Below the pieces are notes generated by a model. That model worked only from the letters and a program-made list of their open reading frames with translations. It was not told where the DNA came from and searched no databases. A stretch of DNA of 47,247 bases from a virus. The translations under genes and the position numbers were made by a program. Positions 2 through 30,427 of the stretch are shown piece by piece. The stretch is from positions 1 to 47,247 of the IMG/VR virus record IMGVR_UViG_3300017917_003119; one strand, given 5' to 3'. How positions within the stretch are numbered: position 1 is the stretch's first letter; every line of letters begins with the position of its first letter.

Positions 2-1654
2 TATTTTGGTGATAATCCACAACAATACTACTTTATGGCAAAACATACTGCTCCTAAGAAATTTGCTAAAGCTTGGCAAACAATAGCAATGACTGATAAA
101 AACAAGTTACTATATTATCAATTACTTTATGAAACAATGGCAACGTTGTATAAGTATGGCAGAGCAAACAACATGGGATGGGACTTACATACTGAAAATG
201 TTATGCGTAGGAAAGACGGTACATTAGTTATTACTGATCCTTTTTATGACTTTATTAATAATAAGTTAAATGAAATTAAAGCGTTAGAAGATTATGATCC
301 TAATGGTCCTCCTCCTGGACCTGAATTTAAACCAACAATGCCAGCTGGCACCTTAAGAGTTGATGTAAGTGATGTATATGATTGGTATAAGCTTGGACAA
401 CATATTAGCAACATGAAGGGTCTAGGTAAGCATGATTTTGGTAAAGGACCACCAAGCACTATATTAAGTTTTGGTGATGAAGATACTGAACATCAGTATA
501 TACAAGATTTAGAAAAAACAGGATTAACAACTACAGATATTGATCCTATAGATAAGAATCAACCTATAGGAATGAAAAAACAAAAAGTTGATCCTACATA
601 TAATGTAGGTGTTACAGAAGGCTTGTCTTGGTCGTCACTGGATGCGGGATTAAGTATGGAAGATAAGATGGCTATTTTTGAGGAATATGCTATCAACGGA
701 AATTTAACTGAGGCAATCGATGATGATAAAAGAGATTATTTTATGTCATTGTTTAGATTGTCGGACATACCAATTAAAGATAAAAAATATATCGTAGCCC
801 CGTTAGCACTTGTTGGTAATAAAATAATGCCATTGGACGATCCCTCGATTATGAACTATTTTGGGCAAGATAAAGATGGTTTAGTGTTTTACAGAGATGA
901 TGTTACAAAAACATATCCATCAAAAGCCATTAGAGATTTATCTGTATTTAATGTTTTTACTTTTGCTAATAAGGCTGTTTATGACAAATTTAGAACTGCG
1001 CTATCTTTAAAATTTGATATTAACTTACCATCAGTAGGTAATAGTGAGCAAGGTTTGACGGAAGCCTTTGACAAACCCTACAAATTAAAATGGTTTCCAG
1101 GTGATTGGGATGAGGTAACAGCCTACGCTGACATACCCGATGGTGATGATCTAACTATCATATTCAATAACGATGAAAATGAAGAAGGTGAAGAAGCTTG
1201 GAGTCTTGAGTTTTATAGAAACAATAGTCAAGAAATAACAGGTGAAGGTGACGCACAGAGAATATTTGCCACAGTATTAAGTGCGATTCAAACATTCATT
1301 AAGAAATACAAGCCGAACCGAATAATATTTTCAGCTAGTAAAGAAGTTGAACCAGGACAAAAAATACAAAGTCGTGCTAATTTATATGATAGATTAGTTC
1401 AGCGTTATGCTAAGGCATTGGGATATAAAGCATTTAGGGCTGATGCTGGTAATAAAGTTCATTACGAATTGAGTAAAATAAAGAAAAGCGTATCAGAGGC
1501 TTCAGGATACATCCCAAGCGAAAAAGAAAAGAATGACCCACGATTTAAAACAGCATTGACAGTTGATGTAAAGCCTGATAGCATTAAAAAGAATGCCAAA
1601 GCGTTTGGGTCAAAAATCAGTAGAGCAGGTATTCCCCCATTACTTAAACCATAA
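2..1654 (+). CDS. Modular virion-type protein with kinase-like catalytic loop, 5'-truncated
   Basis: The frame is open from the left edge and the first ATG (base 35) lies inside it, so the real start is probably outside the window. Counting from that ATG, residues 49-57 read WDLHTENVM, followed by ITDP at 66-69. This resembles the D-x-H-x-x-N and D-x loops of protein-kinase or aminoglycoside-kinase folds. The middle is rich in D, P and G. Roughly residues 350-490 form a separate acidic then basic module containing EFYRNNSQE and SRANLYDRLVQRYAKALGY, which could be an acetyltransferase-like or structural module. It sits just upstream of the tagged, basic modular proteins and probably belongs with them. 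Kinase activity is an inference from the loop only; a glycine-rich loop is not visible in what is present. Confidence 0.55.
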   Translation, partial: YFGDNPQQYYFMAKHTAPKKFAKAWQTIAMTDKNKLLYYQLLYETMATLYKYGRANNMGWDLHTENVMRRKDGTLVITDPFYDFINNKLNEIKALEDYDPNGPPPGPEFKPTMPAGTLRVDVSDVYDWYKLGQHISNMKGLGKHDFGKGPPSTILSFGDEDTEHQYIQDLEKTGLTTTDIDPIDKNQPIGMKKQKVDPTYNVGVTEGLSWSSLDAGLSMEDKMAIFEEYAINGNLTEAIDDDKRDYFMSLFRLSDIPIKDKKYIVAPLALVGNKIMPLDDPSIMNYFGQDKDGLVFYRDDVTKTYPSKAIRDLSVFNVFTFANKAVYDKFRTALSLKFDINLPSVGNSEQGLTEAFDKPYKLKWFPGDWDEVTAYADIPDGDDLTIIFNNDENEEGEEAWSLEFYRNNSQEITGEGDAQRIFATVLSAIQTFIKKYKPNRIIFSASKEVEPGQKIQSRANLYDRLVQRYAKALGYKAFRADAGNKVHYELSKIKKSVSEASGYIPSEKEKNDPRFKTALTVDVKPDSIKKNAKAFGSKISRAGIPPLLKP

Positions 1655-1705: not shown

Positions 1706-2413
1706 ATGAAAATTAATCAAATCATTAGTGAAATGGCAACTACTTCAGGAGCTATTGCTACAGGGCCAGCCATGCCAATGGGTGAAATGCAAAAACGTAC
1801 AAAGGTATCAGGTTTAGAACCAGCGGACAAAGTTATGTTTGGAAAAACAAAAAAGAAAGGTAAATATGTTAATAGTATAAGTGAAGGAAAAATGGAAGAT
1901 TTATCATTAGACTTACGCAGTGATAAAAATGATTTGAAAGTAAATGAAGCAGAATTAAGTGAAGATGATATTATAGTAGTTCCAGGACGAGGTCGTAAAT
2001 TTAAAACAGGGTTTGTTCCTAAAGGTCAAAGTAGAGTAGATCACGAAGTAGAAATGGCACGCAGTGATGTATTAGCTACTATGAAAAATGCAAAGGCAAT
2101 TTATTTACTGTTAAAAAATCGCAGTGAAGAAGAAGGTATTGAAGGTTGGGTACAAGAAAAATTAATTAAAGCTAATGATTATTTAAATGCTGTTAAAGAA
2201 TATTATGATGAAAAAATGATGCAAGAAATGACAGGTGGTGTGATTGCTGGTGGTGTAGCGTTTGAAGGTAAAAAAGTTGACCGTATGGTTAGTCACATTA
2301 AAAAATCTGAAATTAAAACAGGGAAAAGTTCAGATAAAGCAGAAGATATTGCTTGGGCTACTGTTAATAAACGTGGCTATTTAGATAACAAAAATAAAAA
2401 GAAAGGCAAATGA
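1706..2413 (+). CDS. Putative internal head protein with N-terminal capsid-targeting tag
   Basis: A 235-residue protein. The ATG at 1706 is preferred over an upstream TTG (1655) because it gives the N-terminus MKINQIISE, which matches the nine-residue tag of four other proteins in this window and the (I/L)-x-E cut rule of T4 prohead protease gp21. A second possible cut site, SISEG, occurs about 70 residues in. The rest is polar, rich in K, E and D, with a helical segment that includes RSDVLATMKNAKAIYLLL. The C-terminus is strongly basic. A GATAAATA octamer (1675-1682) lies just upstream, like a T4 late promoter. A function inside the capsid is inferred from the tag; no enzyme motif is visible. 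Confidence 0.6.
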   Translation: MKINQIISEMATTSGAIATGPAMPMGEMQKRTKVSGLEPADKVMFGKTKKKGKYVNSISEGKMEDLSLDLRSDKNDLKVNEAELSEDDIIVVPGRGRKFKTGFVPKGQSRVDHEVEMARSDVLATMKNAKAIYLLLKNRSEEEGIEGWVQEKLIKANDYLNAVKEYYDEKMMQEMTGGVIAGGVAFEGKKVDRMVSHIKKSEIKTGKSSDKAEDIAWATVNKRGYLDNKNKKKGK

Positions 2414-2414
2414 T

Positions 2415-4421
2415 ATGAGTAATATTTTAAAGGGCCTTTTAGAAGAATTAGATATTGAAGAAACAAAAAAGTTAACTCCACATGAAAAATTTAAACGTAG
2501 CATGAAACGTGCAGGTTATGATATGGATGCTGGTGCTAAACGATTACACGATTTACTAGATAAACAAAAAAAAGAACGTGAAGAATTTGAAAAGAAAGAA
2601 AAAGAAATAAAAGAAGGACCTGCTGTTGATGCATATATGGCAGGTAAAAGTCCTGCCATAGCACATTTCGCTGATAAACTAGATAAAATTAAAGAAGATG
2701 AGTCTATGCAATTTGCTGCTGAGATAACCCCAAAAATTAGTGCATACACAGGGCTAGAAGATAGAAAATACAGAGGTAGTATTAGCGAAGGGATAAACAA
2801 AATATTAGAAAATCCCGACTACGGCCCAACAGACAGTGGATACCAACAAGGTGGCTGGAGAAAAATGAATGAACAAGAAGTTAGTGAAGATTTGCGTAAA
2901 TGGTTTAAAGAAAAGTGGGTAAGATTCGGACCAGATGGTAAGATTCGTGGAGCGTGTGCAAGAGGTGATGATAGTGAAGGTAAGCCAAAATGTTTACCAC
3001 AAGCAAAAGCACATGCGTTAGGTAAGAAAGGTCGTAAGTATGCTGCTGCTAAAAAGCGTAGAGAAGATCCTAATCCAGAGCGTAGTGGTCCAGCAAAGAA
3101 TGTTGCTACCAAAAAGAAATCAAATGAATGTATACAAGAGAATATGCAAGCTAATTACAAAAACTACTCTACACAAGATTTACTTAGAATGATTAAAACA
3201 ATAAAGAGAGATGAGATTGGCATGAAAATTATCAAAGCTATCTCTAATGAATTAATTCGTAGGAAAGAAAGTGTGGCGGAAGGCACAGAACAGTCTTTAC
3301 AAAAGAAGATTCAGGCTAAACGCGATGCTCTTGGGCTAGCTAGAGAACAACGCAGGGCACGAGGTCAACATCAACAAGGTCAACGCGAAATCAAACTACA
3401 GGCTGAGATTGACAAACTTAGTAGCCAACTAACTCAAATTAAAAAGCAAGATGTGGCGGAAGGCTGGGGATTTGACCAATGGGGACACGACACTTGGACA
3501 GATGCTCAAAAAGAAGTAGCACGAAAGAAAAAGTACGAAATGATGCTATCAAATGGAAAAGTAAAGCGTTTTACTGCCAAAGACGATGCTGATGCCAAAC
3601 GAATTGCTAAAGGTCACGGTGCTAAAAGTGTTATTAAGATGAAAGGTGATCTTCCTGGTAACAAGATAGCAGAGCAAGGTGTGGCGGAAGGCTTTGGTGA
3701 CATATCTGGGTTATTGTCTGCTAGCAACCTAAACAACTCATACATCATTACTGCTGAGTTAGCAGAAGGTGGTAAGAAAAAATTTAGAGTAAAAGCACAA
3801 AATGAAAGAGTTGCTATTGAGAAATTTAAGAAACATCATTCAATGGCAAAAATAATTAATGTTGAGGAAGAAGGTGTTAATGAAGGTAGTAAATACCCAA
3901 GAAACCCAGCTAGTTATCATTTAAAGAAATATCCTGTTCCGCCAGAGCAAATGGTAAGACCAGTTAAAAAGCAAAAAGTTAAACCAAACGAAAAGCCTGA
4001 CCAAAAACCAGAAGAAAAACTTGATGAATTAAAATGTTGGCCTGGTTATAGTAGAGTACAAGGTGTACCAGCGGGTGCTCCTGGTAGTTGTAAAAAGAAA
4101 ACAAACGAAGAACATCAACAATGCCCTGAATGCGGTGGTGCTATGTATGAAGTATCACTAATGAATGAAAAGAAAGATGCTTGTTATTACAAAGTTAAAA
4201 GTCGTTATAAAGTATGGCCTAGTGCTTATGCCTCAGGCGCATTAGTTAAATGTCGTAAAAAAGGTGCTAAAAATTGGGGTAGTAAAAGTAAGAGTAATGA
4301 AGGACAAATTTATAGCACAGGTGGAGGAGCAGGAGAGGCACAAAGATATTATACACCTAAGGATAACTTAGGTGAAGCAAAGAGTAATATATTAACTGGT
4401 ATTTTTAAGGCAAACAACTAA
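2415..4421 (+). CDS. Modular basic polyprotein-like internal virion protein
   Basis: A 668-residue, lysine-rich protein built of unrelated short modules joined by V-A-E-G or similar sites: IKEG (65-68), ISEG (123-126), VAEG (287-290, 347-350, 423-426), LAEG (449-452), VNEG (488-491) and LGEA (652-655). These fit the (L/I/V)-x-E|(G/A) pattern cut by T4-type prohead proteases. Modules include a Cys-bearing basic segment (about 170-233), a coiled-coil-like one (291-346), CWPGYSRVQG (541-550), a C-P-E-C knuckle (570-573) and WPSAYASGALVKC (601-613). The N-terminus (SNILKGLL) is echoed at the C-terminus (SNILTGIF). It starts 1 bp after the upstream stop and its own stop overlaps the next ATG (TAATG). 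Likely a packaged precursor chopped into DNA-binding peptides; this is inference. Confidence 0.55.
   Translation: MSNILKGLLEELDIEETKKLTPHEKFKRSMKRAGYDMDAGAKRLHDLLDKQKKEREEFEKKEKEIKEGPAVDAYMAGKSPAIAHFADKLDKIKEDESMQFAAEITPKISAYTGLEDRKYRGSISEGINKILENPDYGPTDSGYQQGGWRKMNEQEVSEDLRKWFKEKWVRFGPDGKIRGACARGDDSEGKPKCLPQAKAHALGKKGRKYAAAKKRREDPNPERSGPAKNVATKKKSNECIQENMQANYKNYSTQDLLRMIKTIKRDEIGMKIIKAISNELIRRKESVAEGTEQSLQKKIQAKRDALGLAREQRRARGQHQQGQREIKLQAEIDKLSSQLTQIKKQDVAEGWGFDQWGHDTWTDAQKEVARKKKYEMMLSNGKVKRFTAKDDADAKRIAKGHGAKSVIKMKGDLPGNKIAEQGVAEGFGDISGLLSASNLNNSYIITAELAEGGKKKFRVKAQNERVAIEKFKKHHSMAKIINVEEEGVNEGSKYPRNPASYHLKKYPVPPEQMVRPVKKQKVKPNEKPDQKPEEKLDELKCWPGYSRVQGVPAGAPGSCKKKTNEEHQQCPECGGAMYEVSLMNEKKDACYYKVKSRYKVWPSAYASGALVKCRKKGAKNWGSKSKSNEGQIYSTGGGAGEAQRYYTPKDNLGEAKSNILTGIFKANN
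3273..3284 (+). repeat. 12-bp repeat GTGGCGGAAGGC, copy 1
   Basis: Encodes V-A-E-G at residues 287-290 of the modular protein. The same 12 bases recur exactly at 3453 and 3681, including GCG and GGC codons that are uncommon in this AT-rich region. Exact nucleotide identity between otherwise unrelated modules suggests copying of the junction itself. Confidence 0.85.
3453..3464 (+). repeat. 12-bp repeat GTGGCGGAAGGC, copy 2
   Basis: Second exact copy, encoding V-A-E-G at residues 347-350, at the end of a coiled-coil-like module. Confidence 0.85.
3681..3692 (+). repeat. 12-bp repeat GTGGCGGAAGGC, copy 3
   Basis: Third exact copy, encoding V-A-E-G at residues 423-426, between a basic Lys/Ala-rich module and the next beta-rich module. 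Confidence 0.85.
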
Positions 4422-5212
4422 TGCGTTTTTTTGAATTTAGAATAAAACCTGTTGATGCGGTTTATAAAATTCCACAGGATAAGCCTCGCCAACCACAAAC
4501 ATATGTGAGCAAAACTAAAAAAACTGAACCTGCTGCTAAATTAAATTTTGCACACGAGTTGGAAAAGTATAAAAGATTACCAGAAGGTAATGATCAAGAA
4601 TTTTATACTGGCGGATCAAAAGGTTTACCTTATCCAGGAACATATGAACAAGAAGCTAAACCTTTTATAAAAAAAGGCCAGCGAAGAATTATAGCTATGA
4701 CTAATGAAGAAATAAAATTAAAAGATTTACCTTCTGCGGTTATAGAATTTTATAAAACGGTTCCAAATTTTAAAAAAGAACCAGTTAAAAATTATGATGA
4801 ATTAACTGTAGATTATTTAAACAAAACAAATGGAAAATTAAGAAATAAATTAGAAAAAATACTTAATATGGGAAAGAAAAATCCATATTTGCAAGGTGGT
4901 ATCATAACAACTATCGGTGCTTTACTCGCAGGAAGTATCTTAAGTTTTGGAAGTAAATATGGACTAAGCCCAACTCAAACAAATATTTTATTGCAAGGTA
5001 TTTTAAATACTGTTATACCAACGTTGGTAAGTAGAATAAATGGCCGTGATTGGAAAGATACAATTAAATATACATTAGCAAGTGCAGGTACAGGAGTAGG
5101 TATAGCTTCTTTGACAGAAAAATGGAGCAATAAATATAAACGTAGTATAAATTGTAATAGTCCTAAAGGATTTAGTCAAAGAGCACATTGTCAAGGAAGA
5201 AAAAAGAAATGA
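4421..5212 (+). CDS. Putative internal virion protein with hydrophobic segments and basic Cys tail
   Basis: A 263-residue protein that starts in a TAATG overlap with the upstream modular protein. Its N-terminus, MRFFEFRIK, resembles the capsid-targeting tags elsewhere in the window but lacks the terminal Glu, so it may be a divergent, uncleaved version. The first 120 residues are polar. Two hydrophobic, glycine-rich stretches follow (around 158-175 and 185-200), then another near the end, which could insert in a membrane. The C-terminus contains SINCNSPKGFSQRAHCQG followed by a Lys/Arg run, a short two-Cys basic module of the same general kind as those in the upstream protein. A role in DNA ejection or packaging is inferred from context only. 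Confidence 0.5.
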   Translation: MRFFEFRIKPVDAVYKIPQDKPRQPQTYVSKTKKTEPAAKLNFAHELEKYKRLPEGNDQEFYTGGSKGLPYPGTYEQEAKPFIKKGQRRIIAMTNEEIKLKDLPSAVIEFYKTVPNFKKEPVKNYDELTVDYLNKTNGKLRNKLEKILNMGKKNPYLQGGIITTIGALLAGSILSFGSKYGLSPTQTNILLQGILNTVIPTLVSRINGRDWKDTIKYTLASAGTGVGIASLTEKWSNKYKRSINCNSPKGFSQRAHCQGRKKK

Positions 5213-5258
5213 GTCATTTTAATTTTTATTGGAACAGAAAAGGATATCCGAGGTAATC

Positions 5259-5702
5259 ATGTTAGCAGACACACTAAAAACACTATTAGCAACAAGTTAT
5301 GCTTTTGTCATCAAAGCACAAAACTTTCATTGGAACTGCGAGGGTCCCAACTTCCCTGAGTACCATAAGTTCTTGGGAGATTTGTATGAAGAAGTGTATG
5401 AAAATAGTATTGACCAAACGGCTGAGTACATTCGTGTTCTTGGAAGTTATACTCCTGGTAGCATTAGTCGTTTCGCTGAATTAAGTCAAATTCCAGACCA
5501 AATTAAAATACCAAGAGCAGAACTAATGTTTGCTGAATTAGAACAAGATAATCAAAAAATAACAGACATGTATAAACAAGCTTTCCATATTGCCGAAGAA
5601 TCAGATGAACAAGGTATAGCAGATTATATTGCTAGTCGTATAGATGCACATGGAAAACATGGTTGGATGTTACGTAGTATACTTAAAAAAGAACGAGCAT
5701 AA
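5259..5702 (+). CDS. dps: Dps-like ferritin-family protein
   Basis: A 147-residue protein with the Dps signature near the N-terminus: NFHWNCEGPNF (22-32), then H36, D52 and E56, spaced like the inter-subunit ferroxidase residues of Dps. Dps proteins form 12-subunit shells that oxidise and store iron and protect DNA from peroxide. The ATG at 5259 is preferred over an upstream TTG at 5229 because it has a GAGG ribosome site just before it and matches the usual Dps length. It lies between the internal-head-like genes and a secreted nuclease gene. Phage copies are known; whether this one acts in the cell or travels in the virion is not visible. Confidence 0.9.
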   Translation: MLADTLKTLLATSYAFVIKAQNFHWNCEGPNFPEYHKFLGDLYEEVYENSIDQTAEYIRVLGSYTPGSISRFAELSQIPDQIKIPRAELMFAELEQDNQKITDMYKQAFHIAEESDEQGIADYIASRIDAHGKHGWMLRSILKKERA

Positions 5703-7496: not shown

Positions 7497-8450
7497 ATGA
7501 AAAAACTTTTTGTTTTATTATTTTTTATGCCATTGCTTGCAGCCGCATGGCAACCAACTAAACCTATTAATGTAGTATTTCCTAATGGACCTGGCGCAGG
7601 AAATGAAATTAGTTTTTTCATTGTTGCAGATATAGTGTCTAAAAATACCGGAGTTGTATTCAATAGGGAACATAAACCTGGCGCAGATGGCAACATAGCA
7701 ATAAATGGATTTATGAATGCATTACCTGATGGACATACTGTTGCTGTTCCTGCTTGTCAGAGTAATTGGGTAACTGCTGAAATATGGTATCCACATCTTG
7801 TAAAATATGATATTATGTCTTTTGAACCAGTAACAAATATAGCACGTAGTCCACTTGCATTTTTTGCACATCCTTCTAGTAAAGTAAACACACCAGAGGA
7901 ACTTGTTAAAGATATAATTGCAAAACAAAGACCAATTAATTTTGCAATAGGGGGAGGTGGTCATAGATTGGCATTGGAGTATCTTGTAGAAAAAACAAAT
8001 GTAAAAGATGATAAGGTACAAACTGCTATGTATAAAGGACCTGCACAAGCTTTACTTGACGTTATGGGAGGTCATGTAGAGTTTGGAATCACTCCAATCG
8101 CTGTGGGCTATCCGCATGTACAATCAGGAAGACTAAAACTTATTGGCATTGCAAATGAAAAGCCACTTCCAGGATTAGAAAAAGTTAGATTAATGCATGA
8201 TGTGGCTACAGGATTGTATATACATGGATGTTGGAATATTATACTACCAAAAGGTACACCAGAGCCTATACAAAAATGGTATCGTGATAATTTTATTCCA
8301 GCAATTAGAAGTAAGGAAGCAGACGTTAAGTTTAGAGAAAACATGATGTTTATTACTACTGAATGGCATAACCCAGAAGGGGTAAGAGCAGCAATGCATA
8401 GAATGCGTCAAATTTGGCAACCAATCGCAAAAAGGATTAAACCTGAATGA
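7497..8450 (+). CDS. Bug-family (TctC-like) periplasmic solute-binding protein
   Basis: A 317-residue protein of normal length for the Bug/TctC family, the extracytoplasmic receptors of tripartite tricarboxylate transporters. A signal peptide (MKKLFVLLFFMPLLAAA) is followed by WQPTKPINVVFPNGPGAG (18-35), HKPGADGNIAI and ALPDGHTVAV, which are family hallmark loops lining the carboxylate-binding cleft. Later blocks include YKGPAQALLDVMGGHVEFG and SGRLKLIGIAN. Bug proteins are greatly expanded in Betaproteobacteria such as Burkholderiales. No membrane subunits are encoded nearby, so it would have to work with host TctA/TctB, or act as a decoy or sensor. A rare kind of cargo for a phage. Ligand unknown. 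Confidence 0.88.
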   Translation: MKKLFVLLFFMPLLAAAWQPTKPINVVFPNGPGAGNEISFFIVADIVSKNTGVVFNREHKPGADGNIAINGFMNALPDGHTVAVPACQSNWVTAEIWYPHLVKYDIMSFEPVTNIARSPLAFFAHPSSKVNTPEELVKDIIAKQRPINFAIGGGGHRLALEYLVEKTNVKDDKVQTAMYKGPAQALLDVMGGHVEFGITPIAVGYPHVQSGRLKLIGIANEKPLPGLEKVRLMHDVATGLYIHGCWNIILPKGTPEPIQKWYRDNFIPAIRSKEADVKFRENMMFITTEWHNPEGVRAAMHRMRQIWQPIAKRIKPE

Positions 8451-10574: not shown

Positions 10575-11276
10575 ATGCTCGCAAAAGAATTTATTATTGA
10601 ACGTAGGAAAAAACTTAGACGTAAACCATCATTAAAAAAGTATTATTTTGGCTACGGTTATTACGGTAATACAGAAAATTCATCCGGTGAAACAGGCGAC
10701 GGTGGCGGTGAGAGTGTATATGAAGGTGCAGTAGACGAATTAAGAAAACGTCTACCTAGTCTTAAAAAGCACAATCTTACTACAATAGAAAGATTAGTCA
10801 AAAGCATTTCAATTAAACATAAAATCAACCAACATGCATTAGAAAGACTATTTTCAAAGAAATTTGATAAAACGCCCTCGCAATGGTTAGCAAGTAGATT
10901 AGATGAACACGATGCTGTTGATTGTGATTTGGAAGATGAAGTTAATAAATTTGCACATTGGGCTAGTAAGAAACTTAGTTTAAAAGTTGTACCAAAAATT
11001 CAACTTAGTATGGACACGCAAGAAGCACAAGATGGTCATCATACTGGTAGTCACAAAGCAGGATCTCACGAGGTTTGGGTATATGCTAAAAATAGAAATT
11101 TAGTTGATATTTTACGCACTGTATTTCATGAGTTAGTGCATGTTCGTCAGGGCGAATTAAACATGATAAAAGATGGTGATAGTTATCCTGGTAGTGCTAT
11201 TGAAGCAATGGCAGATATGTTAGCTGGAAAGTATATTAAAGTATACGGTGAAAAAAATCACCATATTTTCCAATAA
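10575..11276 (+). CDS. Zinc metalloprotease (HELVH) with capsid-targeting tag
   Basis: A 233-residue protein. The N-terminus MLAKEFIIE fits the nine-residue packaging tag, with I-I-E at 7-9 as a prohead-protease site, and SVYEG (47-51) could be a second site. Residues 10-45 are basic then Gly/Tyr-rich, a linker. The catalytic motif HELVH is at 185-189, with E210 in SAIEAMAD as the likely third zinc ligand, as in gluzincins. A His-rich loop (GHHTGSHKAGSH, about 154-165) precedes it. A packaged protease could be delivered with the DNA and act on host proteins, or act in head maturation (inference). It stands between the kinase fusion and tilS. Confidence 0.75.
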   Translation: MLAKEFIIERRKKLRRKPSLKKYYFGYGYYGNTENSSGETGDGGGESVYEGAVDELRKRLPSLKKHNLTTIERLVKSISIKHKINQHALERLFSKKFDKTPSQWLASRLDEHDAVDCDLEDEVNKFAHWASKKLSLKVVPKIQLSMDTQEAQDGHHTGSHKAGSHEVWVYAKNRNLVDILRTVFHELVHVRQGELNMIKDGDSYPGSAIEAMADMLAGKYIKVYGEKNHHIFQ

Positions 11277-18365: not shown

Positions 18366-18745
18366 TTAAAACAATAAAAGGTACTAACGGTGTTACTGTG
18401 AATGGCGGTACAAGTAGCTTTCCCTTTTTCAACATGAATTCATATTCAGGAACAAGTATTGCACCAGGTACAGTAAGATATAACGGTTATAATTATAACT
18501 TTGAAGTATATGATGGTTTTGCGTGGTTGACAATTCCCAGTAATCATTCTACAATAGAATTAGATCAAACAACTAAAGAAATTATTGAATGGGCTAAGGC
18601 TAAACGTGCTGAAGAAGAATATCTAAAATCTGAAGCAGAGAAAAACCCTACCATAAAAGATTTATTGAATCAACGTAATGATATTGACAGTAAAATTACT
18701 ATGGTAAAAACTCTAATTCAAAACTGCAAAGTATGCGAATCATAA
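18362..18745 (+). CDS. Small protein with virion-type Y/G-rich motif and coiled-coil tail
   Basis: A 127-residue protein. The first 65 residues are Gly/Ser/Thr-rich and contain GTVRYNGYNYNFEVYDG followed by W-L-T-I, a motif like those at the tips of phage tail fibres or structural proteins. The second half is helical (TKEIIEWAKAKRAEEEY, then a heptad-like helix) and ends with a C-x-x-C pair. Function unknown; a structural role is suggested only by the N-terminal part. It overlaps the clamp stop by 4 bp and the next gene's start by 13 bp if the first ATG is used there. Confidence 0.55.
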   Translation: MIKTIKGTNGVTVNGGTSSFPFFNMNSYSGTSIAPGTVRYNGYNYNFEVYDGFAWLTIPSNHSTIELDQTTKEIIEWAKAKRAEEEYLKSEAEKNPTIKDLLNQRNDIDSKITMVKTLIQNCKVCES

Positions 18746-20217
18746 GTATGATTGAACAAGACAATCTTTCACAAAAGCAAAACCCTGATTGGGCATTGTT
18801 TCTACCCGCAGTATCTAGCTTTTTTATCAGTGGATTAGGCAAACAACGTGAAGGTGAAAACTATTTTGATATTAATAGGATTCCTAAAGGATTTAATGGT
18901 GATGTTGAATGCTTAAATTTCTTAAACAGTAAACAAGGCCTATATAATTATAAATGGGGATTATACAGTGCTGGTCATGCAAATCTTGATACTAATGTTA
19001 TTGATAATGCTGAAAGCATTATAAGAAAACGTGAAAAAGGTACTTTCTTATTAGGTGATAGTGGTGGCTTTCAAATCATGAAGGGTCAATGGCCTGCAGA
19101 TTGGAAAGACATTAATTGCCCTAAAGCTATGAAGCAGCGACAAAAGGTTCTCAAATGGATGGATACATACATGGACTACGGTATGTGTTTAGATGTACCT
19201 ACGCAAACATTACGTAATAAACATTTATTAGACAAACATGGTATATCTACAATTGAAGAAGCAGTACGTGCTACACATATCAATAACGAATATTTTATAA
19301 ACAATCGCAGTGGAGAATGTAAATTTCTCAACGTACTTCAAGGTTTGACGCATAAACAATCTGATGATTGGTATGATGAAATGAAGAAGTATTGTGATCC
19401 AAAAATATATCCTAAAAATCATTTTAACGGTTGGGCTTTTGGTGGGCAAACAAAGATTGATATTCATTTAACATTAAAAAGAATGTTGGGTATCATACAT
19501 GATGGGTTATTAGAAGAAGGTAAACACGATCTAATACATTGTTTGGGTACTAGCATTTTAGAATATGCTGTACTTTTTAGTGATATACAACGAGCAATAA
19601 GAAAATATCATAACCCAAAACTAATTATTACATTTGATTGTGCTAGCCCATTTTTTAGTGCTGCAAAAGGTCTTGCATACTTTAATACAAATATACAACA
19701 TGATAAAAAATGGTCTTATAGTATGGAAAAGACTGCTGAAAATAAAAGCTATGCCAATGATAATCGTAAGTTTCGGGATGCTGTATTACAAGATGGTATC
19801 CATAAACTATTTACAGACAGCCCCGTAACTGATAGAATGTTGGTTAGTGATTTGTGCTACAGAGGTATAGGATTCATTGGTCAACATGGTAAAGAAACTA
19901 AAACGAGTTGGGATACATTAAGTTATACATTGTTACAAGCACATAATGTTTATCAACATATTTGGTCAGTTCAAGAAGCCAATCGTAAATATGATCAAGG
20001 TGTAAAACCTTCAATGGTTTTAGATAAATTTACAGGTGTTGATTTTGGTACTATTGTAGACGAAATATTCAGTAAAAAAGATTACAAAAAAAGTATGGAC
20101 TTACTAGATAAATATAGTAAATTTTGGATGCAGATGAAATCTGGTAGTCAAGGTTATAGTGGTGAAAAAACAGTTAATTCTCTTACAAAATTTGATGAGT
20201 TTTTTTCTTTTGAATAA
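18733..20217 (+). CDS. dpdA: TGT-like 7-deazaguanine DNA transglycosylase (DpdA family)
   Basis: A 494-residue protein with the tRNA-guanine transglycosylase fold: LLGDSGGFQ gives the acid/base D109 and substrate loop 110-114, then FLNVLQG (197-203), WAFGGQ (233-238), the HCLGTS block and ITFDCASP with D301 at the nucleophile position. Queuine TGTs carry a PTR motif after that Asp; here it reads SPF, as expected of a paralogue. DpdA enzymes swap guanine in DNA for preQ0 or related bases, protecting phage DNA from restriction. FolE, QueD, QueE and a YhhQ-like transporter are encoded 7-11 kb downstream. Start is either 18733 or the ATG at 18748, which avoids the overlap. The C-terminus FDEFFSFE may bind the clamp. 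Confidence 0.82.
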   Translation: MRIISMIEQDNLSQKQNPDWALFLPAVSSFFISGLGKQREGENYFDINRIPKGFNGDVECLNFLNSKQGLYNYKWGLYSAGHANLDTNVIDNAESIIRKREKGTFLLGDSGGFQIMKGQWPADWKDINCPKAMKQRQKVLKWMDTYMDYGMCLDVPTQTLRNKHLLDKHGISTIEEAVRATHINNEYFINNRSGECKFLNVLQGLTHKQSDDWYDEMKKYCDPKIYPKNHFNGWAFGGQTKIDIHLTLKRMLGIIHDGLLEEGKHDLIHCLGTSILEYAVLFSDIQRAIRKYHNPKLIITFDCASPFFSAAKGLAYFNTNIQHDKKWSYSMEKTAENKSYANDNRKFRDAVLQDGIHKLFTDSPVTDRMLVSDLCYRGIGFIGQHGKETKTSWDTLSYTLLQAHNVYQHIWSVQEANRKYDQGVKPSMVLDKFTGVDFGTIVDEIFSKKDYKKSMDLLDKYSKFWMQMKSGSQGYSGEKTVNSLTKFDEFFSFE

Positions 20218-23345: not shown

Positions 23346-24171
23346 AAATAAAAATATAAAGGTTTTAATAGCAGGTGGATGTAGTTTTACACAAATACCT
23401 GTTTATTCATTTACTGAAGGATTCGAAACAAAAATAGTACCGAAGCAAATTATTAAAAATATTTTTGACAACGGAGATATTGATTCTAAGGTAAGAATTA
23501 CTTGGCCAATACATCTTTCATTACTAATAAGTTGTTCTAGTATTTTCGAGGGTAGAGGAGCCTGTGGCAATGGTATAATTAGTAGGTCTATTATTGAAGC
23601 AACTGAATTTGCATTAAAAAAATATGAACCTGAAGAAATATTAGTTGGTGTGATGTGGAGTGGTAGAGATAGGGGAGAATATTTTTTTAATGATAAACCT
23701 AATTATACTTACGATAATTTAGGGGGACAAAAATTTAAATATTATAAAAATCCAATGAATATTACTACTAAAGCAAACTATTATATTACTAACTCACATT
23801 GGAATGATGAAATTTCTAAACATTATTATAGTTATTATGATGATCACGGGGCAACACAAAAAACATTAGAGCATATATTAAGAATACAGTGGTATCTAAA
23901 AAATAAAAATATTAAATATTTTTTTTCAGAATATCATTGTGATGTATTACCTAAAACAGAAGAATATACAAACCATCCTGATTTAAAAACATTATATGAA
24001 TTATTAGACATGGATAATTTTTTACCATGCACCAATTGTTATGATTGGTGTTTAGATTTTGGAAGTTATGAATATTTAGAAATGCATGGAAATCACCCTA
24101 GTTCTGAACAAAGTTTAGAATTTACAGAAAAAGTAATCATACCACATTTAATTACAAAAAAAATATTATGA
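23335..24171 (+). CDS. SGNH/GDSL-hydrolase-like protein
   Basis: A 278-residue protein. After a short basic start it has VLIAGGCSFTQ, a block I-like G-x-S-F-T with a candidate nucleophile Ser, GRGACGNGIISRSI, which would supply Gly/Asn of the oxyanion hole, and near the end EMHGNHPSSEQSLEF with a His at the catalytic position. This is the pattern of SGNH esterases in phage and cyanobacterial surface-sugar clusters. The substrate could be acylated polysaccharide or sugar. The ATG at 23335 overlaps the preceding small gene; its 3' end overlaps the guaC fragment by 4 bp. Confidence 0.55.
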   Translation: MRIENKNIKVLIAGGCSFTQIPVYSFTEGFETKIVPKQIIKNIFDNGDIDSKVRITWPIHLSLLISCSSIFEGRGACGNGIISRSIIEATEFALKKYEPEEILVGVMWSGRDRGEYFFNDKPNYTYDNLGGQKFKYYKNPMNITTKANYYITNSHWNDEISKHYYSYYDDHGATQKTLEHILRIQWYLKNKNIKYFFSEYHCDVLPKTEEYTNHPDLKTLYELLDMDNFLPCTNCYDWCLDFGSYEYLEMHGNHPSSEQSLEFTEKVIIPHLITKKIL

Positions 24172-25007
24172 GAGTTGAAGACGAAATTAAGTTAGATTTT
24201 AAAGATGTGTTAATTAGACCTAAACGTAGCACATTATCAAGTCGTAAAGAAGTTGATTTAGTAAGAACATACAAATTTAAACATAGTAGGTATGAATATC
24301 AAGGTATTCCTATTATGGCTTCGAATATGGATGGTGTCGGTACAATTCAAATGGCAGAAACGTTAGATAAACATAGGTTATTTACGTGCCTTATAAAATT
24401 GTATAATAATGACATTGACAACTTTATGGTTTTCAAAGTACCAAATAATTCTTACGCAGTAAGCACAGGAACAAGTGACCAAGATTTTCGTAATTTAAAC
24501 ACGATAGTAACAGGATTAGGGACACAGTTTATTTGTATAGATGTGGCTAATGGTTATAGTGAACATTTCGGAGACTTTGTAGAAAGCGTTAGAAAGCGAT
24601 GGCCAGATAAAACAATTATTGCTGGTAACGTTGTTACAGCAGATATGACACAGGAGTTAATATTACGTGGAGCTGATATTGTTAAAGTTGGTATTGGGCC
24701 TGGCTGTTTTGCTCCGGGCCAAAAAGTTAAAACGGATAAAGGCTTAAAAAATATCGAAGATATCAAACAAGGCGAAAAAGTTTTAACACATACTGGTTCT
24801 TACAAAACTGTGACAAACACATTTAAATTTGATGATAAAAAATCGATAGTCGATGTAAATGGAATCAAAGCAACTCCTAATCACGAGTTTTATGTTTTAC
24901 ATAAAAAATATCGAGACATTGTAACAGATGATAATATTCATCAGTTTGCAGAATGGGTTAAAGCAAAAGACTTAACACAGGATTATTTACTTCTAAAGCA
25001 TAAATAA
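24168..25007 (+). CDS. guaC: GMP reductase N-part fused to N-terminal split intein
   Basis: A 279-residue protein. Residues 1-179 are the N-part of GuaC, the NADPH-dependent enzyme turning GMP into IMP: FKDVLIRPKRSTLSSR (11-26), FICIDVANGYSEHF and IVKVGIGPG. At C180 the enzyme stops just before its catalytic loop, and 100 residues of IntN follow: CFAPGQKVKT with Cys1 (180), then NIEDIKQGEKVLTHTG and block B TPNHEF. The frame stops after LLLKHK with no C-terminal intein blocks. The remaining part is encoded at 25854. The arrangement matches the IMPDH-1-type split inteins described from marine metagenomes. Confidence 0.93.
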   Translation: MRVEDEIKLDFKDVLIRPKRSTLSSRKEVDLVRTYKFKHSRYEYQGIPIMASNMDGVGTIQMAETLDKHRLFTCLIKLYNNDIDNFMVFKVPNNSYAVSTGTSDQDFRNLNTIVTGLGTQFICIDVANGYSEHFGDFVESVRKRWPDKTIIAGNVVTADMTQELILRGADIVKVGIGPGCFAPGQKVKTDKGLKNIEDIKQGEKVLTHTGSYKTVTNTFKFDDKKSIVDVNGIKATPNHEFYVLHKKYRDIVTDDNIHQFAEWVKAKDLTQDYLLLKHK

Positions 25008-25036
25008 TATTATAAAAGTTGCTATAGGAGTAGGAT

Positions 25037-25864
25037 ATGAAATCTAATATGTTTAAAAATTCTGTGGAAATTGTAAGATTTGAAAAAGCAGGCAGAAATA
25101 ACTTTGCTTACTTTAAAAATGGGGAAAAAATTTCTTCAGGTGATTTAGGCAGAATTGAAATCGAATGTGATAACTGTAAATCGTTAAAACAGGTGGGGTT
25201 TAGATCAGCGTTATTAAAAAAGGAATATGTGTGCCAAAGTTGTAACAAAATAGGCAAAAGTAATCCCTTTTATGGAAAAACTCATACACAAGAAACTATA
25301 AAGCGTCATTCTAAATATATGAAGGGTCGATTTGTTGGCGACCGTAATCCATTTTACAGTAAGACCCATACAGAAGAAACTAAAGAAATACTTCGTCAAA
25401 AATGCGCTCACTATGGAGAGGATAACGGATTTTATGGAAAAACTCATACTGATGAATTTAAAAAGAAACATTCCGAATTTATGAAAACTATAGGAAAACG
25501 TCCTATAGAATATTACTCATTGATGGGCATAAAATCTGTTAATAGCAAACCCAAAAAAACTAAAATAGAAAAAGCAACGGAACAAAAGTTACAAGAATCG
25601 GGTGTTAATTTTAAGTACAACTTCATTTTACAAAATAAAGCACAGTATGATTTTTTAATAAACGACAACATTGTTTTAGAAGTTCATGGAGACTTTTGGC
25701 ACGGAAATCCCGAAGTGTATAGCACATTAACAGAACGACAAGAATATAAAAAGCAACGAGATTTTGAAAAACAAAAATTAGCAGAAGATAACGGATACAA
25801 ATATATCGTTATATGGGAATCACAAATTAAAAAAAATGACTGGAGTATTTTAGATGAAATTTGA
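25037..25864 (+). CDS. Free-standing homing endonuclease, NUMOD3-like repeats and Vsr-like nuclease
   Basis: A 275-residue protein lying between the two guaC-intein halves. It has a C-x-x-C pair (DNCKS region then CQSC) like a zinc finger, then three repeats with G/S-K-T-H-T-x-E (about 75-145), which are NUMOD3-like DNA-binding repeats. The C-terminal domain reads [15 protein letters not shown], then [15 protein letters not shown] and [11 protein letters not shown]. This is the layout of Vsr-related EDxHD-type homing endonucleases reported in fractured genes. It would cut intein-free guaC alleles and spread the insertion. Its ATG has a GGAG site; its stop overlaps the next ATG by 11 bp. Confidence 0.88.
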
Positions 25865-26468
25865 ATTAGTCGAAATAGGCACACTCGAAACTGAATCATA
25901 CAACGGATACACATATGATTTAGAAGTTGAAGAAGATCATTCATACAATATCGAAGGTGTAGTAGTACATAATAGCGTGTGTACCACGAGGTTGCAGACT
26001 GGTGTTGGATATCCGCAATTATCAGCAATCATCGAATGTGCCGACGCCGCTCATGGCCTTGGTGGACATATTATCGCTGATGGGGGTTGTACTTGTCCTG
26101 GAGACATTGCCAAAGCTTTTGGAGCAGGTGCAGATTTTGTAATGCTTGGTGGTATGTTAGCAGGACATGATGAAGGTGGTGGCGAAGTAATTAGTGAAGA
26201 TGGCTATAATCCAAGAGTGATCTTTTATGGTATGAGCAGCGATACCGCAATGGAAAAGCACCAAGGGGGAGTAGCTGAATATCGTAGCAGTGAGGGTCGT
26301 ACTGTTGATATACCATATCGCGGTCCTGTACGTGATACTGTATTAGATATTTTAGGTGGTTTACGTAGTACGTGTACATATGTTGGCGCTAGTAATTTAA
26401 AACAACTTCCTAAGTGTACAACATTTATTAAAGTAAATAGACAAGTAAATGATGTATTTTTAAAGTGA
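25854..26468 (+). CDS. guaC: C-terminal split intein fused to GMP reductase C-part
   Basis: A 204-residue protein. Residues 1-40 form Int[21 protein letters not shown] (21-40), ending in H39-N40, with S41 as the +1 nucleophile. Residues 41-204 are the C-part of GuaC, starting [15 protein letters not shown] with catalytic C43. They continue with [53 protein letters not shown] and [13 protein letters not shown]. The 179 and 164 extein residues sum to 343, near the 347 of E. coli GuaC, so the spliced product should be complete. Splicing would restore GPG-S-x-C-T-T-R, so the intein sits in the active-site loop. Confidence 0.93.
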
Positions 26469-26849: not shown

Positions 26850-27536
26850 TTGAGTTTTGATAAAACTAAAGTAGACCCTGTATTAGGGAAAAAAGTAAGA
26901 GAATATTTAATTAAAATGGGAGTAGAAACTCCTATTAATAATGAAGCACTTGCTGTTGAAAACAAGAAAAAAATTGATATTCTTGAAAATGCATTTACAA
27001 CTATATGGAAAACAGTAGGTATGGATCTAAATGATGATAGCCTACAAGAAACACCAAATAGAATGGCAAAAATGTATATTAATGAGATATATTTTGGCCT
27101 CAAGGAAGAAAACTTTCCAAAGTGTACTACGGTAAATAATAAAATGCAGTACAACGAAATGGTGGTGGAAAGAAATGTCTCAGTTCAAAGCAATTGTGAA
27201 CATCATGGTGTTATTATTGACGGTCTTGCTACTGTTGCATATGTACCTAAGGATAGAGTATTGGGTCTTAGCAAAATTAACAGAATTGTGGAGTATTTTA
27301 GTAAGCGTCCTCAAATCCAAGAACGGTTGACTGAACAAATTTTTCATACATTACAATATATCTTAGATACTGAAGATGTTGCAGTAATGATTGACGCACA
27401 ACATTATTGTGTAAAAAGTCGTGGTGTAGAGGATACAGGAAGTAGTACTGTTACTAGTAGATTAGGTGGTGGATTTAAATCTGATCCAGCAGTACGTAAT
27501 GAGTTTTATAGTATTGCTCGATCAGGATGTAAATAA
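26850..27536 (+). CDS. folE: GTP cyclohydrolase I
   Basis: A 228-residue protein of the FolE type. Zinc ligands C116 (NCEHHG), H119 nearby and C187 (HYCVKSRG) are present, with LSKINRIVEYFSKRPQIQERL (140-160) covering the active-site helix. FolE opens GTP to 7,8-dihydroneopterin triphosphate, the first step of both folate and 7-deazaguanine synthesis. The start is TTG (26850) with AGGAG seven bases upstream. The presence of queD and queE close by makes the deazaguanine route the more likely use. The final part, VTSRLGGGF, follows the canonical signature. Its stop overlaps the next ATG (TAATG). Confidence 0.95.
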   Translation: MSFDKTKVDPVLGKKVREYLIKMGVETPINNEALAVENKKKIDILENAFTTIWKTVGMDLNDDSLQETPNRMAKMYINEIYFGLKEENFPKCTTVNNKMQYNEMVVERNVSVQSNCEHHGVIIDGLATVAYVPKDRVLGLSKINRIVEYFSKRPQIQERLTEQIFHTLQYILDTEDVAVMIDAQHYCVKSRGVEDTGSSTVTSRLGGGFKSDPAVRNEFYSIARSGCK

Positions 27537-27769
27537 TGGGATATAAAAAGCCAGACCTGCATAATACTAACGTGCTTATTAATAGTGCGATTTGTGAGGC
27601 AAATAGTCGTTTCAACGATGGATTTACACAGTTTGAGATTAAAAAAGAATTATACAAACTAAAATGGATTCTTGATGAATATTTTACAAAAGCGCCTAAA
27701 TACCTAGGTGAGGATGAATGGATTGATGAAATGATGAAACGTAGAGTTATAGAAATACTTAAAAAATGA
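27536..27769 (+). CDS. Small helical protein of unknown function
   Basis: 77 residues, mostly helical, with FEIKKELYKLKWILDEYF and a basic C-terminus (MMKRRVIEILKK). It is coupled to folE by TAATG and overlaps the next gene by 4 bp, so it is in the same operon. No known family recognised. Confidence 0.6.
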   Translation: MGYKKPDLHNTNVLINSAICEANSRFNDGFTQFEIKKELYKLKWILDEYFTKAPKYLGEDEWIDEMMKRRVIEILKK

Positions 27770-28230
27770 TATTCAACAAAATTAAAGAATTAAAAGATAA
27801 AGTCGTTGCTATAACTTTTTCTACGTTTGACTTACTACATGCAGGACATATTGCTATGTTAGCAGAAGCTAAAAATCATTGTGATTATTTGATAGTTGCA
27901 TTACAGACTGATCCAACTATTGATAGACCAGATACAAAAAACAAACCAGTACAAACAATCGTTGAAAGACAAATACAATTACAGGCTGTAAGATATGTTG
28001 ATGAGATTGTTGTTTATGAAACGGAAAAAGATTTAGAGGATTTATTACTTACGTTGCCCATTCAGAAAAGAATTTTGGGTATAGAGTATGCTGATAAAGA
28101 CTTTACAGGTAAACAAATTTGTATTGACAGAGGCATAGAAATCATTTATAATAAACGTGACCATAGTTTTAGTAGCAGTAGTTTACGCAAAAGAGTATAT
28201 CATGCTGAAGCTTATAAAGAACGGTGGTAA
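27766..28230 (+). CDS. Glycerol-3-phosphate-cytidylyltransferase-like nucleotidyltransferase
   Basis: A 154-residue single-domain nucleotidyltransferase. FSTFDLLHAGHIAML carries the HAGH motif, and FSSSSLRKRV near the C-terminus matches the S-x-S-x-x-R closing motif of TagD-like enzymes. The middle contains TVERQIQLQAVRYVDEIVVY-type sequence, as in TagD. A CTP- or ATP-dependent transfer to a phosphorylated alcohol or sugar is expected. It is the third nucleotidyltransferase in this window and shares the operon with folE and queD. Confidence 0.75.
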   Translation: MIFNKIKELKDKVVAITFSTFDLLHAGHIAMLAEAKNHCDYLIVALQTDPTIDRPDTKNKPVQTIVERQIQLQAVRYVDEIVVYETEKDLEDLLLTLPIQKRILGIEYADKDFTGKQICIDRGIEIIYNKRDHSFSSSSLRKRVYHAEAYKERW

Positions 28231-28307
28231 ATAGTATTAGCGGTCTGTGGCATTCATCCCGCTTTATAAATTCTGCATGTCATCAAACTTACTCAAGGAG
28301 GCAAGAG

Positions 28308-28781
28308 GTGGCAAAGTTTATTTCAACAAAAACCTATCGTCAGATAGGCCCAGTAGCATATCGCCAATGGCGTGCTGATAGTCATTGTAATCTTATACAT
28401 GGTTATGCATTAAGTTTTCATTTTGAATTTGAATGTGATACTCTTGATGCACGTAACTGGTGTATGGATTTCGGTGGACTCAAAGATTTAAAATTTAAAT
28501 TGGAAGATTGGTTTGATCATACATTATTAGTTGCAGTTGATGATCCCCAACGTGAAGACTTATTACATTTAGGAAAAATTGGTTTAGCAAAAATTACAGA
28601 AGTAGAGAAAACAGGTTGTGAAGGCATTGCTGATTTTCTTTATGAATATGTAAACACAATTTATTTGCCTAGTTTTGGAAAAGGTGAAGCAGAAAGAGTA
28701 TGGTGTAGTAAAGTAGAAGTGCGTGAAACTGATGCTAACATGGCAATGAGAGTAGGTCATAGAGAGGAATTAATATGTTAG
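28308..28781 (+). CDS. queD: QueD-like 6-carboxytetrahydropterin synthase
   Basis: A 157-residue protein (start GTG 28308, preceded by AAGGAGG; an upstream in-frame reading from 28224 has no ribosome site). RQWRADSHCNLIHGYALSF carries the QueD motif, but the usual H-G-H is H-G-Y, so the third zinc ligand may be replaced. CMDFGGLKDLK, WFDHTLLVA and a late E in CEGIAD complete the active-site pattern. QueD turns dihydroneopterin triphosphate into 6-carboxytetrahydropterin, the second step to preQ0. It lies after a nucleotidyltransferase and overlaps the aldolase gene by 7 bp. Confidence 0.88.
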   Translation: MAKFISTKTYRQIGPVAYRQWRADSHCNLIHGYALSFHFEFECDTLDARNWCMDFGGLKDLKFKLEDWFDHTLLVAVDDPQREDLLHLGKIGLAKITEVEKTGCEGIADFLYEYVNTIYLPSFGKGEAERVWCSKVEVRETDANMAMRVGHREELIC

Positions 28782-29404
28782 AAACATGCTGTGATGTGCT
28801 TGTAGAAGCTTATAACAGAAATTGGATCACAAGTCGTGATGGAAATTTAAGCATTCGTTATCACGACCGAAATCATTTTTACATTACTCCTAGTGGCGTT
28901 CGTAAACAAAAAATGCAATATGATATGTTTAAAAAAATACGTATTGCAAACAGTGGAATAAGAGAATACCCTGAAGTTATTGAACAGAATGATATAAGTG
29001 GTAATCTAGAACCAAGTGGTGAATTGCCATTGCATTTTGGTTTACAACGAGAAATGGGACAACATAGTAATGATATTCGTGTTGTAGTTCATTTACACCC
29101 AACCTATATTATTGCTGCAATGCACAAAGGTATAATATTACAAAATTTAGTAAAAGATTTTCCTGAATTAAGTAGGTACACAAAAGTTGCACCAAACGTT
29201 GGAGATGTACCTCCTATCAGTCAAGAATTAGCAGACGCATGTCATTGTGCCTTAAATCTTGACAACATGGGAAATATTGACTATGATATTGTAGGTATTA
29301 AAGGACATGGGGTTGTAAGTATTGATACAACTCCATGGAGGGCTTTCGAGCATATCGAAAGGCTAGAACATATTTGTAAAATTGTTCTAGCATCAGGTGT
29401 TTAA
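28775..29404 (+). CDS. Class II aldolase-family protein
   Basis: A 209-residue protein with the fuculose-phosphate aldolase/adducin fold: SRDGNLSIRY (the phosphate-binding start), YITPSGVRKQ, EPSGELPLHFGLQ with the acidic residue, VVHLHPTYIIA giving the H-x-H zinc pair, and GIKGHGVVSID followed by HIERLEHICKI. This matches AraD-like 4-epimerases and aldolases with zinc. The substrate is probably a sugar phosphate. It shares an operon with queD and the YhhQ-like gene; a direct role in deazaguanine chemistry is not evident. Confidence 0.78.
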   Translation: MLETCCDVLVEAYNRNWITSRDGNLSIRYHDRNHFYITPSGVRKQKMQYDMFKKIRIANSGIREYPEVIEQNDISGNLEPSGELPLHFGLQREMGQHSNDIRVVVHLHPTYIIAAMHKGIILQNLVKDFPELSRYTKVAPNVGDVPPISQELADACHCALNLDNMGNIDYDIVGIKGHGVVSIDTTPWRAFEHIERLEHICKIVLASGV

Positions 29405-29422
29405 TTTTATAAGGATAAAAAA

Positions 29423-30049
29423 ATGTTAAACAAAATTTTAGATGGTGTAGATAAATCAATAGCATATAAACTTATGCTTGCACATATTTTAATTATTGCT
29501 ATTAGTAATTATGTTGTACAATTTAAGTTCACTATATTTGGAGCACCATTAGCTTGGGCAGCATTTACGTTTCCACTAGTAGTGGTATTAACTGATTTAA
29601 CAGTAAGACTTCTAGGAAAACAAACTGGTAGAGCGGTTATTAGTCTTGCATTTATACCTGCTATTTTGGTAAGTATGGCAGTTGTAAAATTGGGAGGTGC
29701 TCCTGACAGTGTTGCTTTTAGAATCGGTTTAGGTTCAGGTATGGCTTATTTTATTAGTAACTTACTTGATGTTTATGTTTTTCAATATTTCCGTGAAAAA
29801 TATAGTTCATGGTGGATTGCACCTACTTTAAGCGCAATTGCAAGTACATTTATTGATACTTATGTATTTTTTGGTACAGCATTTGCAGGTGGTGCAGATG
29901 AGTTTATGGCTAATAATTGGCATATTGTTGCTACTAATAATAGTATTAGTAAAATTATCATAAGTTTAGTTGTAATATTACCAGCTTATGGTTTATTACT
30001 AAATCATCTTCAACGTAAATTAGCTAATCAAGAAACATCCAATGGATAA
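29423..30049 (+). CDS. yhhQ: Queuosine-precursor transporter (YhhQ family)
   Basis: A 208-residue membrane protein with about six hydrophobic helices. Family hallmarks are LTDLTVRLLGKQTGR, where D and R are conserved, then ISNLLDVYVFQYFRE, SWWIAPTLSAIASTFIDTY and FFGTAF. YhhQ-type proteins import 7-deazaguanine precursors such as preQ0 or preQ1. In this cell such a carrier would supply the transglycosylase, or the host, with preQ0, complementing FolE, QueD and QueE. It follows the aldolase after 18 bp with an AAGGA site, and its end overlaps a MazG-like gene by 8 bp. Confidence 0.85.
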   Translation: MLNKILDGVDKSIAYKLMLAHILIIAISNYVVQFKFTIFGAPLAWAAFTFPLVVVLTDLTVRLLGKQTGRAVISLAFIPAILVSMAVVKLGGAPDSVAFRIGLGSGMAYFISNLLDVYVFQYFREKYSSWWIAPTLSAIASTFIDTYVFFGTAFAGGADEFMANNWHIVATNNSISKIIISLVVILPAYGLLLNHLQRKLANQETSNG

Positions 30050-30320
30050 TCGAGTTAGAGAAACACTGCTAATTTTACAAGAAGAATGTGCAGAAGTTAC
30101 CCAAGCCGTTAGCAAATGCTTTAGGTTTGGGTTAGACAATTTCAAGCCAGGTAAACCCTCAACCAATTTAGAACATATGGAAACTGAGATTGGTGATGTA
30201 TTAGCTATGATTGACATTCTAGTAGAACAAGGAGTAGTAAGTAAAGAAAACTTGATTGCTGCAACAGCAGCCAAGAAACAAAAACTTAAACAATGGTCAA
30301 ATATATATGAAAATATGTAA
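30042..30320 (+). CDS. MazG-like NTP pyrophosphohydrolase
   Basis: A 92-residue all-helical protein with LQEECAEVTQAVSKCFRFG, matching the E-x-x-E of the MazG/phosphoribosyl-ATP pyrophosphatase group, and METEIGDVLAMIDILVEQG with E-x-x-D. These bind magnesium and hydrolyse nucleoside triphosphates to monophosphates. Phage versions are common and may clear altered or excess nucleotides such as dNTPs. It is the last gene of the deazaguanine-related operon before a 107-bp gap. Confidence 0.72.
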   Translation: MDNRVRETLLILQEECAEVTQAVSKCFRFGLDNFKPGKPSTNLEHMETEIGDVLAMIDILVEQGVVSKENLIAATAAKKQKLKQWSNIYENM

Positions 30321-30374
30321 ACAATCATTAAACAGTCATTGAATTTAAATTAAATTATTGTTCCTAAAAACTTT

Positions 30375-30403
30375 TTGAGCTATTATTATTATGATAATAT
30401 GCT
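30375..30403 (+). promoter_or_regulatory. Sigma70-like promoter for queE
   Basis: TTGAGC (30375-30380), a 17-bp spacer and TATGCT (30398-30403) in the gap before queE. A second TATAAT-like site (ATTATAATAA near 30406-30415) lies just after it. The spacer is ideal but the boxes are not perfect. Confidence 0.4.
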
Positions 30404-30427
30404 ACATTATAATAAACTGCTAATATT

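Follow-up and report, generated by a model that had tools for sequence, protein, structure and literature searches.

An 18-bp in-frame joint between exchangeable modules of a presumed head-cargo precursor in uncultured giant phages

We consider it likely that the 668-residue product of one gene in this viral record is a precursor chain of head cargo, in which modules are joined by [VIL]-x-E-G sites and cassettes are exchanged at an 18-bp linker. In the proposed cycle, a T4-type leader and contacts with the core would draw the chain into the prohead core, a gp21-type S77 protease would cut after each E, and the freed modules would be packed with the DNA and then injected, some of them to act on host machinery. 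At the level of the genome, the 18-bp sequence CAAGGTGTGGCGGAAGGC at module ends would serve as a fixed DNA linker: recombination between its copies would add, remove, duplicate or swap module-plus-junction cassettes in frame, and every new join would rebuild a cleavage site automatically.

The chain and its modules

The window, by which we mean the whole stretch of DNA analysed, is one complete IMG/VR virus record of 47,247 bases with 32% GC and is probably a genome fragment. Its DNA polymerase most resembles, at 42-49% identity, those of giant T4-related phages, for example Sinorhizobium phage Phosso, Agrobacterium phage Atu_ph07, Vibrio phage 2.275.O and Cronobacter phage GAP32. The modular gene, its parts and its neighbours are arranged as follows:

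35..1654, plus strand: further modular gene with a kinase-like stretch and an ASGYIPS module at its end
1706..2413, plus strand: upstream gene (leader MKINQIISE); many cassette chains have a relative of it as N-terminal anchor
2415..4421, plus strand: 668-aa modular chain, matching phrog_727 and other PHROGs, all of unknown function
2415..2792, plus strand: module M1, with ISEG at its end; 25 loci have relatives of it in other contexts
2793..3119, plus strand: module M2, Lys/Arg-rich (WFKEKWVRFGPDGK...); 134 loci with varying neighbours
3120..3284, plus strand: cassette M3 with its VAEG junction (12-mer 3273-3284); missing in L124/L125
3285..3464, plus strand: cassette M4 with its VAEG junction (12-mer 3453-3464), predicted helical; missing in L124/L125
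3465..3692, plus strand: cassette M5 with its junction, the full CAAGGTGTGGCGGAAGGC at 3675-3692; missing in L124/L125
3693..3887, plus strand: module M6, ending in VNEG; 8 loci, directly after M2 in L124/L125
3888..4421, plus strand: modules M7-M8, with Cys residues and many Lys/Arg; conserved in T4-like cyanophages
4421..5212, plus strand: downstream gene (MRFFEF...) with no family match, possibly part of the same cargo cluster by position and N-terminus

The preliminary description had reported three exact VAEG-coding copies within the 668-aa ORF, and these are confirmed: GTGGCGGAAGGC, the 12-mer coding VAEG, occurs exactly at 3273, 3453 and 3681, each time in the frame of the chain, where 0.04 copies with at most one mismatch are expected by chance in 47 kb and three copies were reached in none of 100 shuffles. 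The chain also carries IKEG at residue 65, ISEG at 123, LAEG at 449, VNEG at 488 and LGEA at 652, and it has seven [VIL]xEG sites in all, where shuffling its residues gives 0.75 and not one of 5000 shuffles reached seven. These sites have the aliphatic P3 and the E at P1 of a gp21-type site. All four of the variant sites named at the outset (ISEG, LAEG, VNEG and LGEA) are thus present, but LAEG is probably no junction, because it sits within M6 and is TAEG in the relatives L124 and L125. ISEG is IGEG in both relatives, the P3 and P1 residues being kept. No Pfam family matched the chain, and no tandem array was found within the gene, the junction being its sole repeated part.

Several parts of this region recur elsewhere. 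A module 70% identical to M4 follows QGVAEG in L035, and M5 occurs in 36 loci with differing partners, mostly bounded by VAEG-type sites. A moderate-confidence structure model of M5 shows a small alpha/beta domain with a disordered C-terminal VAEG end; it gave no significant PDB match, and a weak likeness to the phage antitoxin Dmd (E about 0.2) counts as no evidence. The relatives of the upstream gene, a relation read from sequence, are first modules in their chains, a family of 28 in all, and have 23 different modules to their right; the ASGYIPS module comes after GVAEG in L133.

The rest of the window holds genes of other kinds. A ferritin-like (Dps-like) gene lies at 5229-5702, directly past the presumed cargo cluster. 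A TctC-family tripartite tricarboxylate transporter receptor gene at 7497-8450 is a possible auxiliary gene; this family is especially expanded in Betaproteobacteria, and the gene would fit a betaproteobacterial host, which we take as a lead only. An IMP dehydrogenase/GMP reductase gene lies in two halves at 24168-26468, each with intein sequence; with Hint_2 and intein splicing matches in the halves and a NUMOD3 endonuclease-like ORF between them, it has the look of a fractured gene that carries a split intein. Genes at 18733-20217 and 26850-31267 that resemble GTP cyclohydrolase, PTPS/QueD (Pfam match), QueE and TGT-like proteins (by eye) possibly form a 7-deazaguanine DNA modification set.

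Proposed head packaging and cleavage at the sites

A Peptidase_S77 protein, of the T4 gp21 family, is encoded in 9 of 25 records and in 6 of the 8 over 250 kb, and in jumbo-phage relatives its gene shares an operon with those for an acidic core-like protein, a gp22-like scaffold and gp23; no S77 protease gene was detected within the 47-kb window fragment. Two long records, L048 (343 kb) and L050 (266 kb), have the junction and no PF03420 match, their prohead protease being either diverged or missing. The major capsid proteins of the relatives carry an L-x-E about 40 residues in, directly before the conserved body (LLAE-SSAG, LLSE-SSAG, HLAE-NATAG, YLKE-NASAG), a position comparable to that at which T4 gp23 loses its 65-residue propeptide (PMC5694885).

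A second line of evidence comes from gene starts. The T4-like leader pattern, M[KR]-short spacer-[EQDN][FILV][ILVFTRM]xE, occurs at 344 of 4,663 gene starts in the junction loci, compared with 0.7% of internal Met; the N-terminus of T4 ipII and ipIII reads MKTYQEFIAE-A, and in L085 and L109 the leader runs directly into VAEG. Six of the 60 gene starts in the window fit the leader, including that of the upstream gene and one, at 20449, that looks like chance; the other four mark candidate packaged proteins:

10575-11276, plus strand: leader gene MLAKEFIIE
33801-34355, minus strand: leader gene MRLSEILLE
34357-35220, minus strand: leader gene MRAIEFIRE
35222-36403, minus strand: leader gene MKINEILFE, with a GP88 domain that recurs in one cassette chain

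The 668-aa chain itself does not match the strict leader motif; LLE at its residues 8-10 could be a candidate leader site. The cultured phage PA5oct is a relative by its capsid protein (L454), and its first 150 kb contain just one strict leader gene, MKINDIITEG (MK797984.1, 82921-83142). This gene adjoins the one for the portal, and its annotation records detection by ESI-MS/MS, a single case that agrees with packaging. The cargo leaders may copy the N-terminus of a core protein.

The sites themselves show the mark of protein-level selection. With VAEG set aside, [VIL]xEG is enriched 2.0-fold in chain ORFs and 1.03-fold in others, and polar and charged residues are depleted at P3 in the chain ORFs, the pattern that a protease with an aliphatic P3 would select; V at P3 of the presumed site is an extrapolation from the T4 consensus (L/I)xE. 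Relatives of the C-terminal module occur in 365 phage records, nearly all of T4-like cyanophages, where they include the T4-GC 119 proteins (Syn9 gp114, P-SSM2 PSSM2_123). The S-CREM2 homologue, ORF160 (128342-129235), was detected in the virion proteome by 7 unique peptides with 13.1% coverage, at which cut and uncut protein are indistinguishable (PMC10665884 Table 3), and the S-SCSM1 homologue gp029 is annotated as a virion protein, in a phage for which virion proteins are known from mass spectrometry (PMC9602691). The T4-GC 119 proteins have neither the 18-bp joint nor the VAEG array, and the cyanophage proteins detected in virions have no such joint; the joint therefore arose within a lineage that has no known cultured representatives. 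Together, the S77 operon, the capsid LxE, the leaders, the [VIL]xEG enrichment and the homologues in virions lend indirect support to the original suggestion of gp21-type cleavage into packaged peptides. We infer, with good support, that the chains are packaged and cleaved; packaging of the 668-aa chain in particular, its cutting at VAE/G, injection, host action and the recombination pathway used are inferred as well.

What the modules might do in the host is indicated by their domains. In L131 (5698-9363), one of the cassettes consists of a sigma-70 region 4 domain (E 2e-18), a good candidate for an injected protein that would target the RNA polymerase of the host. A Pfam scan of 53 chains returned GNAT, sigma-70 region 4, GP88 and DUFs, and kinase families were also matched among modules; none of the 53 contained a named large-polyvalent-protein domain. 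The sigma-70 region 4, GNAT and kinase-like domains make the host-active peptides of the preliminary description plausible, and the sole observation bearing on its DNA-condensing peptides is that M2 and M7 are Lys/Arg-rich. Within the homologous chain of L124 and L125, a cassette in its upstream part (YHATLKAFEPSIIKSGLLPGGN...) is similar by eye to an RNA 2'-phosphotransferase or ADP-ribosyltransferase fold and has no Pfam match.

An unlikely though not negligible alternative is a multidomain polyvalent protein that is packaged or expressed in one piece, with QGVAEG a flexible linker that is kept as a recombination joint and never cut. The chain is indeed a mosaic of shuffled domains, and the modules of such chains resemble polyvalent proteins both in their mosaic order and in the domains they include (GNAT, kinase, sigma region). 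Polyvalent proteins are likewise long mosaic phage proteins of many shuffled domains, thought to be injected with the DNA, for which the available text of Iyer et al. 2017 (PMC5512222) describes no periodic protease sites or conserved DNA joint. This reading would account for shuffling without a protease, but a plain linker does not need the fixed E, the aliphatic P3 and E-G are selected at the protein level even where the DNA differs, and the chains stand beside genes with T4-like [IL]xE leaders in phages that have a gp21-type protease and an LxE capsid site.

The joint as DNA and the exchange of cassettes

In IMG/VR, the full junction is the 18-bp sequence coding Q-G-V-A-E-G, and our junction dataset comprises 688 distinct VAEG junctions in 359 ORFs. 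Of the 524 distinct exact 12-mers counted over all loci, 522 are in the frame that reads VAEG. Because the 12-mer itself served to fetch many of the loci, conservation within that set is inflated; codons were accordingly counted only in loci fetched by protein similarity, which avoids this search bias. There, VAEG is spelled GTG GCG GAA GGC in 25 of 49 distinct contexts, compared with 0.4% expected from codon usage, GGT precedes it in 39 of 49 and CAA stands before that in 27 of 49, and the joint is therefore CAA GGT GTG GCG GAA GGC. These loci use GCG and GTG sparingly (9% and 19% of the codons for their amino acids), and the claim that exact identity extends to uncommon codons stands.

The 12-mer occurs 44 times in 25 long records and is found in 20 of them (reversed control, 0), most of these records having been picked for carrying it. 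The viral collection contains at least 120 matches to a 17-base version of the junction and at least 120 to each of two 21-base versions; 50,697 isolated phage records gave just weak partial matches (E 0.8 or worse). A bacterial or archaeal source of the junction was rejected, the 20-mer having no exact match in 257 Gb of bacterial and archaeal genome contigs.

The 359 ORFs divide into 1,092 modules, with 70 families of at least three members, of which 54 have at least two different left neighbours and 52 at least two different right neighbours. Nucleotide identity between occurrences of one module in different contexts is about 0.9 within it, 0.84-0.99 across the 18 bp and about 0.3 just outside, and on the right side the drop falls exactly at the last base of GGC. 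Between flanks that are 96-99% identical, single cassettes have been gained or lost (202 nt in L079/L390, 388 nt in L023/L442) with breakpoints inside the junction, and L115 contains a tandem cassette duplicate. In L124 and L125, the nearest relatives of the window, M2 is joined straight to M6, so that the stretch M3-M4-M5, to which all three VAEG copies belong, is an insertion relative to them; L125 in turn has one QGVAEG cassette more than L124. The GC content of M4 and M5 (0.43-0.44 vs 0.33-0.37 in flanking modules) is as expected of pieces from a shared pool. Junctions, shuffling, breakpoints and indels are all direct observations of this analysis. The boundary profiles, the clean module indels and the three cassettes missing in L124/L125 strongly support the earlier proposal that the junctions were copied by recombination, and the question it had posed, whether modules of homologues shuffle with the junction kept, is answered strongly in the affirmative.

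These data also bear on explanations that place the cause in the DNA itself. It is improbable that the units are a selfish mobile element, with a dedicated recombinase moving module plus junction and VAEG an incidental in-frame spelling of the insertion site. The joint is identical at the DNA level, is gained and lost by unit and has spread over many genomes, in line with such an element, but nearly all copies are in one sense frame, which would not be maintained by an element to which the product made no difference, no mobility gene is common to the modules, and the joint is non-palindromic with no common fold. More doubtful still is the proposal that the codons of the joint are preserved by demands of translation or RNA, such as a pause where a module ends, with recombination secondary: the uncommon GCG and GTG codons would suit it, but no common RNA fold was found at the junction, and pausing needs neither the same preceding CAA GGT nor breakpoints exactly at the joint edges. 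Chimeric contigs joined at a short repeat are hardly credible, even though all junction-bearing loci are metagenomic contigs with no isolate match, for open frames span up to 8 junctions, nearly all copies share one frame, contigs from different datasets show an identical match (e.g., L143, L144 and L146), and the 12-21 bp repeat is shorter than the k-mers with which assemblers usually finish.

To account for these data, general recombination of the T4 type or annealing at short repeats would suffice. A broader reading, which we judge to be evenly balanced, is that the 18-bp sequence is both recombination joint and code for a head-protease site, through which a broad population of uncultured giant phages would trade a shared pool of injected modules, possibly by a dedicated recombination mechanism.

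Known systems and implications

The closest likeness is to the T4 internal head proteins (IPI, IPII, IPIII and Alt), which carry a capsid targeting sequence and are cut by gp21: the leader M[KR]xxEFIxE resembles T4 MKTYQEFIAE, and common to both are the gp21-22-23 operon, x-E sites with an aliphatic P3 and diverse cargo. The T4 proteins are single genes with one or few sites, whereas here many modules share a chain with a repeated site that doubles as a conserved DNA exchange joint. Once injected, T4 internal proteins and Alt have host-takeover roles (PMC9026906, a review). Giant phages of the phiKZ/SPN3US type likewise cut several head proteins after x-x-E with a gp21-related protease and inject large cargo (PMC5694885, PMC9026906), but their motif is S/A-x-E, and neither exchangeable module chains nor a conserved DNA junction is reported there. 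In the open-access literature searched, we found no description of in-frame cassettes with a conserved DNA joint encoding a processing site, nor any account of cleavage in these chains; a search on the peptide motif returned unrelated papers only, and one on shuffled polyproteins and prohead protease returned nothing.

Short conserved DNA at the joints of exchangeable modules is familiar from the boundary linkers of mosaic phages and from integron cassette arrays. The present joint differs in lying within the coding frame and encoding a presumed processing site, and, unlike integron-type recombination sites with their inverted repeats or folded strand, it has no common fold.

If the proposed reading is true, it would explain how phages diversify their injected proteins: a joint-flanked module could be inserted without breaking the frame and would be released by the same protease. 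The 18-bp DNA tag and the leader M[KR]xxEFIxE would then list hundreds of unannotated candidates for injected modules of host takeover or counter-defence, and the old idea that mosaic evolution makes use of short fixed linkers at module boundaries would become directly testable.
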